Shown here piece by piece: positions 28,071-31,871 of a stretch of DNA of 36,755 nucleotides. The notes under the pieces were generated by a model that did not search any database, was not told where the DNA came from, and was given only the letters and a program-made list of their open reading frames with translations. The translations under genes were made by a program, and so were the position numbers. This stretch comes from a bacterium (GTDB lineage Bacteria > Cyanobacteriota > Vampirovibrionia > Obscuribacterales > JAKAZS01). The DNA lies in assembly GCA_021785395.1 (NCBI GenBank), contig JAJYFO010000005.1, positions 1-36,755 on the forward strand, read 5' to 3'. The first letter of the stretch is position 1, and the number at the start of each line of letters is the position of its first letter.

Positions 28071-28414
28071 AAGTTATCAGTCATATGTAAATACTTAGGT
28101 AAATCATTAACTTTTAAAATTTTAATTACGCAGTTTGGACTTGGATTTTTTATTAATTTTTCGATTAAACTGGCCAGTTTAATCCTTTGTTTTATCGCTG
28201 TATCTAGATCTTTGGCCGGGATTAAAGAAGATTCTTTGACGATATTTTCATTGCTTAAAGTAGTTAAATTATTTTTACAAAAATTTTTTATTTCAGTGAT
28301 TTTAATATTAGAATTCGCAAGCCCGTTATCGCAGTCTTGAATTAATTTGAGCAATTCACGTAAACTGCGTGTTTCAGCTTTAAAGATGGCTTGAACGTCA
28401 TTACTTATTATCAT
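28067..28414 (-). CDS. Small helical hypothetical protein
   Basis: 115 aa, predicted almost all alpha-helical, with two cysteines near residues 28 and 46 and another later (PSPNCVIKIL). No signal peptide or membrane segment. No family recognised. It starts at ATG 28414, which overlaps the end of the readthrough frame from the upstream small membrane protein (that frame's TAA is at 28401-28403), so translational coupling is possible. Its stop overlaps that of the convergent prepilin peptidase. It is probably controlled by the palindromic promoter at 28644-28675. Confidence 0.6.
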   Translation of the reverse strand: MIISNDVQAIFKAETRSLRELLKLIQDCDNGLANSNIKITEIKNFCKNNLTTLSNENIVKESSLIPAKDLDTAIKQRIKLASLIEKLIKNPSPNCVIKILKVNDLPKYLHMTDNF

Positions 28415-28478
28415 GATTATTTATGGTGCTATCCATATTTGTTTTAGTCTCGACCGAGCCACATTTGCTTCGGCTGGC

Positions 28479-28568
28479 TCAAGTTGATATGCCAAGTTTT
28501 GGCAAAAGCCAAACTTGCAGTACGATCCAGAATATTAAAAAGCCAATAAAAACAAGGGTGTCATTCAT
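28479..28568 (-). CDS. Tiny single-span membrane protein (29 aa to TGA)
   Basis: ATG at 28568 opens a frame reading LVFIGFLIFWIVLQVWLLPK, one clear membrane helix, then LGIST and a TGA stop at 28479-28481. The frame continues 25 codons to TAA at 28401 (SRSKC follows soon after the TGA), overlapping the next gene's start. No strong ribosome site. From memory, small proteins with a TM-LPxLGxPTC-(x)4-5-C layout exist, and TGA would fall at the first Cys, so the full product may be a 55-aa selenoprotein or a readthrough form. If not, it is a 29-aa membrane peptide. It is the first gene after the ArsR-side promoter. Confidence 0.5.
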   Translation of the reverse strand: MNDTLVFIGFLIFWIVLQVWLLPKLGIST

Positions 28569-28705: not shown

Positions 28706-29092
28706 ATGTCTGAAAATTCACATCAAATATTTGGTCCATTGTCAAGGAATGCTTTAGAAATCGTGGCTTTACGCTTTAAGGCTTTAAGCGACCCAACCAG
28801 GCTGTCTATATTACAGCATTTGTTAAATGGTGAAAAGACCGTTGGCGAAATTTTTAAATTGACTAACATGAATCAGGCCAATATAAGCAAGCATTTGGGT
28901 GTATTGCTCGACCAGGGACTTGTAGCCAAACGTAAAGACGGCTTATTCGCGTACTATCGCATTGAGGATGACAGTGTCGCTAAAATTTGTGAATTGGTCT
29001 GTAATTCGGTCAGTAATCGACTTGATATTACTCATTCGGAATTTAAAATAGCCAAAAAAGAGAAATTTCGTAATTACCCCAATGATAATTAA
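28706..29092 (+). CDS. ArsR-family winged-helix transcriptional regulator
   Basis: 128 aa. ALSDPTRLSILQHLLNGEKT and VGEIFKLTNMNQANISKHLG are the helix-turn-helix, followed by the wing (LVAKRKDGLFAYYRI). The arsenic/metal-type CxC pair in helix 3 (ELCVC) is absent; two cysteines occur instead in ICELVC in the last helix, which could sense metal or oxidants. Members usually bind dyad operators and release DNA on ligand binding. The palindrome at 28644 is 31 nt upstream, so autoregulation and control of the divergent small genes is likely. No Shine-Dalgarno sequence precedes the ATG, so translation may be leaderless-like or weak. Confidence 0.85.
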   Translation: MSENSHQIFGPLSRNALEIVALRFKALSDPTRLSILQHLLNGEKTVGEIFKLTNMNQANISKHLGVLLDQGLVAKRKDGLFAYYRIEDDSVAKICELVCNSVSNRLDITHSEFKIAKKEKFRNYPNDN

Positions 29093-31142: not shown

Positions 31143-31349
31143 AACTTAACAATTACCTGTATACTTTACACTATTTAATAATTCTTGTCTAGTATTTTCT
31201 CATTAGAAAAATCGCCCTAATTCTATATAAATTGTTAAATTTTTTTTAAACCTGTTATTTTTCGCATTTTTCTGGGTATGTATGGATTAGAGTTAGCTTG
31301 CTAAATTATAGGTGAGACTAAACTCGAATTAATTTTGAGGGGGATTAAT

Positions 31350-31871
31350 ATGACACAAGAAAAACCGGTTCAAGTTGGTGGTAATACCAACATCAAAGGT
31401 TCTCAAGGGAATATCGACACTTTGCACGTCCGCAAGGTAGTTGCGCGTAATCCTAATACACCTAAACAAGTCTTGGCCAAACTTATTGAGGATAGTGATA
31501 GCAATGTAAGGCACGGAATTGCTTCTAATCCGAAAACCGATAGTGACCTTTTACAAAAACTAGCTTTTGATATCGATAAAGATGTTCGGCTGGCAGTGGC
31601 TGAGAACCCTAATACACCGCCAGTGACTCTGTCGTTATTGTCAGACGATGAAGACGTTGATGTGCGTTTTGGTGTGGCTGAAAACCCGCATATGCCAGAA
31701 AAAATCTTGTTAAAACTAGCCCATGATGAAAACGCTTACGTGCGCTGTAGAGCATTAAAAACCCTCCAGATTTTTCCTTTGGAAATCCAGGAGCGTTTAA
31801 AGATGTTACTTGAAGAAAACTGGGTTCCAAGACACAATGAGATTTCGCCAAACCCTAGCTTGGGCGAGTAG
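31350..31871 (+). CDS. Leucine-rich repeat variant (LRV) / HEAT-like repeat protein
   Basis: 173 aa from ATG at 31350, chosen for the GAGGGGG ribosome site at 31337-31343; an upstream frame extends five codons. From about residue 30 it has four or five repeats of about 24 residues with consensus VAxNPxTPxxxLxxLAxDxDxxVR: ARNPNTPKQVLAKLI, ASNPKTDSDLLQKLA, AENPNTPPVTLSLLS and AENPHMPEKILLKLA. These form a superhelical binding scaffold. The Fe-S cysteine cluster that precedes the LRV repeats in the Azotobacter protein is absent; the only Cys is in the last repeat. No signal peptide, so cytosolic protein binding is likely. Partner unknown. Confidence 0.8.
   Translation: MTQEKPVQVGGNTNIKGSQGNIDTLHVRKVVARNPNTPKQVLAKLIEDSDSNVRHGIASNPKTDSDLLQKLAFDIDKDVRLAVAENPNTPPVTLSLLSDDEDVDVRFGVAENPHMPEKILLKLAHDENAYVRCRALKTLQIFPLEIQERLKMLLEENWVPRHNEISPNPSLGE

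Follow-up and report, generated by a model that had tools for sequence, protein, structure and literature searches.

The locus

The DNA analysed here, called the window, is the 36,755 nt of contig JAJYFO010000005.1 (assembly GCA_021785395.1), from a bacterium of the Obscuribacterales, a non-photosynthetic order of Cyanobacteriota. Its subject is a short gene, a predicted selenoprotein gene, that is interrupted by an in-frame TGA. Starting from an ATG at 28568 and reading along the minus strand, the gene runs through 29 codons to the TGA and then through 25 more to a TAA stop (28403–28401). With the TGA left open the frame translates as MNDTLVFIGFLIFWIVLQVWLLPKLGIST-U-ASRSKCGSVETKTNMDSTINNHDNK*, where U marks the TGA. 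The features, including a hairpin assigned as a selenocysteine insertion sequence (SECIS), are collected in Table 1.

The N-terminal part forms one membrane helix, with a hydropathy peak of 2.48 (19-residue span), and is followed by the motif LPKLGIST just ahead of the TGA. In the AlphaFold2 model only residues 3–24 are helical; the remainder is without structure, with a confidence (pLDDT) of 51–61 in the tail. The frame shares 14 nt with the next open reading frame (ORF) of the minus strand, whose ATG is at 28414. A first-pass annotation had placed a candidate selenoprotein or readthrough gene at 28401–28568 without naming a strand. The coordinates are correct, with the gene on the minus strand; a plus-strand reading was rejected. 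Translation also reproduces the membrane peptide of 29 codons, the open codons beyond the TGA, the Cys six residues further on and the overlap with the start of the next gene.

Table 1. Features of the locus in the window, with the evidence for each
Feature	Coordinates	Strand	Basis
Predicted selenoprotein gene, 55 codons including selenocysteine	28401–28568	minus	Translation; about 150 homologues of the same architecture among the matches listed
Single membrane helix, residues 3–24	28497–28562	minus	AlphaFold2 helix at high pLDDT; hydropathy
In-frame TGA, probable selenocysteine codon, residue 30	28479–28481	minus	TGA or Cys codons at this column in homologues
Cys36 codon (TGT), second conserved residue, six past selenocysteine	28461–28463	minus	86-sequence alignment A2
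Core of conserved SECIS hairpin, CUC-GGUC-GAG; GGUC loop at 28455–28452, 23 nt after the TGA	28449–28458	minus	Conservation of loop and stem in the order
GAGCCA/TGGCTC pairing of the first-pass annotation, alternative fold overlapping the SECIS stem, probably incidental	28456–28480	minus	Not kept in relatives
Overlapping downstream gene, function unassigned, 115 aa	28067–28414	minus	Also downstream in L023/L024
Divergent ArsR/SmtB-type regulator, C-x3-C pair in last helix (ICELVC)	28706–29092	plus	Pfam HTH_5 E = 2e-14; NCBIfam NF033788 above cut-off

Homologues and the TGA column

The read-through protein was used as a query against 289 related genomes. About 45 clear matches lie in the Obscuribacterales, nearly all with exactly one internal TGA. 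The codon at this column is TGA in 40 of the 42 distinct members that were read from the order, and TGT (Cys) in the other two, L027 and L065; the latter and L048, the TGA copy of a sister genome, share 88% identity over 400 nt. Neither TAA nor TAG is found at this position in any of the family matches listed by the profile searches of the order. In a 41-member alignment, with selenocysteine (Sec) written as Cys, the residues L22, P23, G26, T29, U30, C36, S38 and V39 are invariant. An extra copy, L069 (G017:C19), reads LPKLGIPT-TGA-MSGSCSVEQ, but stop codons interrupt the helix region ahead of this, and it looks like a decayed duplicate.

A wider scan covered 84,980 GTDB species genomes with the DNA pattern LP(K/R)xGhPT-[TGA/TGC/TGT]-h, which admits these three codons only and is thus uninformative on the absence of TAA and TAG. 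It gave at least 117 loci. On inspection 109 of the 117 listed were judged genuine, having one helix before the motif and a short charged tail after it; the remaining eight matched the pattern by chance and were set aside. The genuine loci have TGA (108) or TGC, again Cys (1). Two of them, L125 and L136, duplicate L059 and L051, and hence there are at least 149 distinct homologues; those listed comprise 146 with TGA and three with a Cys codon. The Sec/Cys exchange suggested earlier for this column therefore occurs. The pattern given there for small one-helix proteins, LPxLGxPTC followed by Cys, is likewise real, but its commonest form has Sec and not Cys. The motif of the family is LP(K/R)xGVPT-Sec-M-S-x-x-Cys, and in alignment A2 (86 sequences) the Cys after Sec is near-invariant, at 90% or more.

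The listed loci span about 15 phyla: Acidobacteriota, Thermodesulfobacteriota, Myxococcota, Planctomycetota, Armatimonadota, Spirochaetota, Zixiibacteriota, Krumholzibacteriota, Calditrichota, Verrucomicrobiota, Rokuibacteriota, Actinomycetota, CSSED10-310, KSB1 and Cyanobacteriota. The count is approximate, as the 'Myxococcota' group includes records titled only 'Deltaproteobacteria'. A profile search of 386 genomes drawn from the phylum of the window gave, besides the window itself, only borderline matches (E 0.006 or worse), and there was no family match in plasmids (tblastn) or viral contigs (pattern scan).

The hairpin following the TGA

Nearly all Obscuribacterales members have a hairpin, CUGCUC-GGUC-GAGCAG, about 14–30 nt past the start of the TGA. 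The GGTC loop is present in every member of the order that has the TGA, and compensatory changes occur in the stem (L023/L024 and L049/L050). The codons spanning the loop are frozen: Ser is TCG in 41/41 members (background 18%) and Val is GTC in 40/41 (background 27%). The sole GTT belongs to L027, one of the Cys copies, which fits an end of selection on the loop once Sec is lost.

The stem hardly varies within the Obscuribacterales, so a covariation screen on the order alone is uninformative. When the 60 nt after the TGA were screened in 99 sequences of other phyla with Cys at +5, taken without selection, the conserved hairpin came out as the best helix; in these listed sequences 65% of the cells of its 7-bp core are paired, compared with 46% expected from column composition. 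A gap-free subset of 56 of the 99 was chosen in a manner that favours the hairpin register and raises the absolute pairing percentage; here the 7-bp stem (columns 20–26/30–36) has 77.6% paired cells, compared with 53.8% when shuffled and 34–42% when slid. Double-sided changes number 110 (38 when shuffled), and covariation is 0.595 (0.13–0.20 when slid). The unselected screen recovers the same helix as the selected subset. Because the sequences are diverse the RNAalifold consensus energy is small, and explicit pair counting was used instead. The family thus has a covarying stem, with a GGUC loop in the order, while the copy in the window taken alone is weak. An Rfam scan of the window gave no match.

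The first-pass annotation had instead drawn a stem of GAGCCA with TGGCTC directly after the TGA. This pairing exists (28480–28475 with 28461–28456), but it is not kept in relatives, its stability is no better than that of shuffled sequences, and it was rejected as the SECIS; the conserved element is a different hairpin further downstream. The first-pass concern was that a stem starting at the TGA is closer than usual for a bacterial SECIS; the conserved hairpin is at a normal bacterial distance.

Selenocysteine machinery

The source assembly (2.83 Mb in 297 contigs, of which the window is contig 275) is 88.5% complete. Searches for selA, selB, selC and selD, which had been proposed as a check, found all four: selA at 333 bits (E 1.8e-99, above the curated cut-off), selB at 293 bits (cut-off 242), selC (the tRNA-Sec) at 70.6 bits (cut-off 47) and selD at 327 bits (cut-off 125, E 1.2e-97). 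The SelD has no in-frame stop or UGA. Formate dehydrogenase alpha gave no match at E 1e-50 in this genome, where no search for further selenoproteins was made.

Within the Obscuribacterales the TGA form goes with SelA. Both are present in 28 genomes, the TGA form only in 4, SelA only in 10 and neither in 11 (Fisher p = 0.004, which is indicative only because the genomes are related). Of 24 genomes sampled from the listed loci of the wider scan, 22 likewise have SelA, and all 22 are among the 23 with TGA copies; the two where it was not detected are that of the Cys copy L132 (Deltaproteobacteria) and the TGA genome of Rokubacteria L192. A published figure for the share of bacteria with the Sec trait is 21.5% (PMC5029168).

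Neighbouring genes

The domains of 112 close same-strand neighbours of listed members were scanned. Rhodanese (15) and pyridine nucleotide-disulfide oxidoreductase (10) were found most often, followed by ArsR (4) and DUF6132 (4), and by thioredoxin, MBL-fold, OsmC, DUF302 and YgaP-like membrane domains (3 each). Many of the rhodanese and reductase cases come from Obscuribacterales and hence are not independent; these partners do recur outside the order (L150, L123). We take the MBL-rhodanese proteins to resemble persulfide dioxygenase-rhodanese fusions, and the reductase-rhodanese fusions to resemble coenzyme A (CoA)-disulfide/persulfide reductases. A thioredoxin gene lies 83 nt downstream of L165, a DsbD/thioredoxin protein is encoded beside L132, and the homologue L108 is itself fused to thioredoxin (E = 6e-29). 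An ArsP-type permease adjoins two members.

Genes for ArsR proteins similar to that of the window lie beside members in Obscuribacterales, Acidobacteriota and Planctomycetota, and in genome G002 such a gene adjoins the selenoprotein gene as it does in the window. ArsR-family proteins such as BigR and SqrR can also sense persulfides, using a cysteine pair that spans helices 2 and 5. The regulator of the window scored 47.5 bits against the NCBIfam BigR model (cut-off 155) and has no cysteine pair across helices 2 and 5; both of its cysteines are in the last helix. The 115-aa gene that overlaps the selenoprotein gene is also downstream of it in both other genomes of the genus, and Pfam and NCBIfam scans of its product found no family.

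In 13 Obscuribacterales loci (L025, L029, L031, L033, L035, L037, L048 and L054 among these) an alpha/beta-hydrolase-type gene lies closely downstream of the selenoprotein gene. A possible functional partner is DUF6132, a tiny membrane protein with the sequence GCxSGxCPLTSNP, whose gene adjoins that of the selenoprotein in L106, L129, L164 and L173, from KSB1-type and similar genomes. Elsewhere in the window a plus-strand ORF of 178 aa (31335–31871) contains tandem repeats, VAENPNTP..LL..LA.D.D..VR, like those of short HEAT-like repeat proteins.

Discussion

From these comparisons the TGA of the window gene is very probably decoded as Sec. The open frame that follows it is, on the same evidence, more than a product of chance, because both its sequence and its RNA hairpin are conserved in relatives. 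With Sec machinery present in the genome and homologues conserved beyond the TGA, the selenoprotein interpretation of the first-pass annotation is supported. SelB and tRNA-Sec, guided by the hairpin after the UGA, would insert Sec at residue 30 rather than terminating. The N-terminal helix would anchor the protein, with Sec some six residues beyond it, probably on the cytoplasmic side, and the disordered charged tail following. The distribution of charge suggests this N-out, C-in topology, with Sec in the cytoplasm. The membrane-tethered selenol would most likely exchange sulfane sulfur or electrons with partners that are encoded nearby in relatives, namely rhodanese, NADH-dependent disulfide/persulfide reductase and thioredoxin, with an ArsR-type repressor adjacent in several cases. 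For a sulfur/thiol redox role taken by itself we judge the chances to be about even. Similarly balanced is the broader proposal of a widespread, mostly Sec-containing one-helix family acting as a membrane persulfide/thiol relay with rhodaneses and NADH-disulfide reductases, which may be a main client of the Sec machinery in some hosts.

Several observations weigh against this interpretation. The assignment of Sec is a prediction from comparative genomics and not from chemistry. The GGUC loop of the window is flanked by three base pairs only (CUC/GAG), and a competing fold is predicted to be more stable, so decoding may be weak in this gene. SelA was not detected in four TGA-bearing metagenome-assembled genomes of genus g6 (G035, G027, G048 and G045; 75–84% complete); incomplete assembly or a recent loss of the machinery may be responsible, and these are indistinguishable. 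Their sisters G007, G022 and G031 do have SelA. The second Cys is absent near Sec in L081, L091, L108, L178 and L181 and displaced in L092, about six of the listed members, so that a Sec–Cys pair cannot be obligatory in the family; the thioredoxin fused to L108 could provide the missing thiol there. Only 75% of 121 members have a tail with more positive charge than the N-terminus. Lastly, the window gene has no adjacent rhodanese or reductase, its neighbours being the ArsR gene and the unassigned 115-aa gene, and a sulfur/thiol role for it is carried over from relatives.

That the TGA is an ordinary stop, ending a single-helix peptide of 29 residues ahead of a frame that is open by chance, we consider highly improbable. 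TGA is a normal stop elsewhere in this DNA, and the fold of the window RNA is unexceptional (z = −0.5 for the folded 51-nt stretch, with 57/200 shuffles folding as well), both of which favour termination. Yet relatives have conserved sequence (SVE and the Cys) that matches the codons after the TGA, Cys codons replace the TGA in three homologues, the stem covaries and the loop codons are frozen. Programmed readthrough of the UGA with another amino acid, such as Trp, would equally account for an open and conserved frame. It is scarcely credible given that Cys is the only replacement at this column among the members read, that the presence of SelA tracks the TGA form, and that the hairpin is similar to known bacterial SECIS elements in its GGUC loop and in where it lies.

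The function of a selenoprotein at this locus could also be other than sulfur/thiol redox chemistry. A metal or metalloid role, in binding arsenic, mercury or copper, is suggested by the ArsR-type regulators beside several members (that of the window with its C-x3-C pair) and by the ArsP-type permeases. It seems unlikely when rhodaneses and disulfide reductases outnumber all other kinds of neighbour, accompanied by MBL-fold and thioredoxin proteins, when a thioredoxin fusion exists, and when ArsR-family proteins can sense persulfides as well. A membrane scaffold or adaptor like SelK and SelS, in which Sec would form mixed (seleno)disulfides to recruit partners rather than take part in catalysis, is a possibility to which we give rather low weight. 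The layout is alike, with one helix and a short, disordered, charged tail bearing Sec, but here Sec adjoins the membrane, whereas SelK and SelS have it close to the C-terminus, and the interaction partners are a proposal only.

We regard these proteins as a putative new selenoprotein family, with membership assigned by the tested features and a role that we infer. It would have been overlooked because gene callers end or skip an ORF of about 30 codons at the UGA; being nearly always in the Sec form, it would also escape any search that depends on an annotated ORF or on numerous Cys homologues. The family would extend the selenoproteome to non-photosynthetic Cyanobacteriota, link selenium to sulfane-sulfur gene sets, and offer a possible reason for the retention of the Sec machinery in several lineages. 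Cultured bacteria that have the gene, such as Geomobilimonas luticola, Thermodesulfatator autotrophicus and Aquisphaera insulae, open the family to direct tests.

Comparison with known systems

Prokaryotic inventories hold about 119 selenoprotein families, most of them thioredoxin-fold proteins or metabolic enzymes (PMC13188914). In the table of 119 families and subfamilies of that work (May 2026) none is described with this motif or architecture, though its families were predicted by the same kind of evidence, i.e. Sec/Cys exchange, SECIS and Sec machinery. GOS_A (PMC2398784), a family that has no model, was reported to comprise 2 forms with Sec and 155 with Cys, the reverse of the balance in the present family. 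We found no description of the motif in the open-licence literature; an earlier one elsewhere is possible. Pfam-A and NCBIfam 20.0 scans gave scattered weak matches to the helix only (E 0.002 or worse), with no meaningful NCBIfam match in 127 member scans. The rhodanese/YgaP/DUF6132 and CoA-disulfide-reductase-type sulfane-sulfur gene sets are recurrent neighbours, but the selenoprotein belongs to none of their Pfam or NCBIfam families.

The decoding apparatus is like that of Escherichia coli fdhF (formate dehydrogenase H), with a UGA, SelA/B/C/D and an in-frame hairpin directly after the UGA. The loop of the fdhF SECIS is GGUC, as in the Obscuribacterales hairpin, whereas a bulged U is not evident in the Obscuribacterales stem, and the product is a one-helix membrane protein of about 50–60 residues with no enzyme domain. 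The protein itself resembles eukaryotic SelK and SelS in having a single membrane helix and a short disordered tail that bears Sec. It differs from them in that Sec is in the middle of the protein beside the membrane and the hairpin is of bacterial type and within the coding frame; no sequence relation is seen, with no Pfam match to such families at E up to 1. In layout, the family would be a bacterial counterpart of SelK and SelS.
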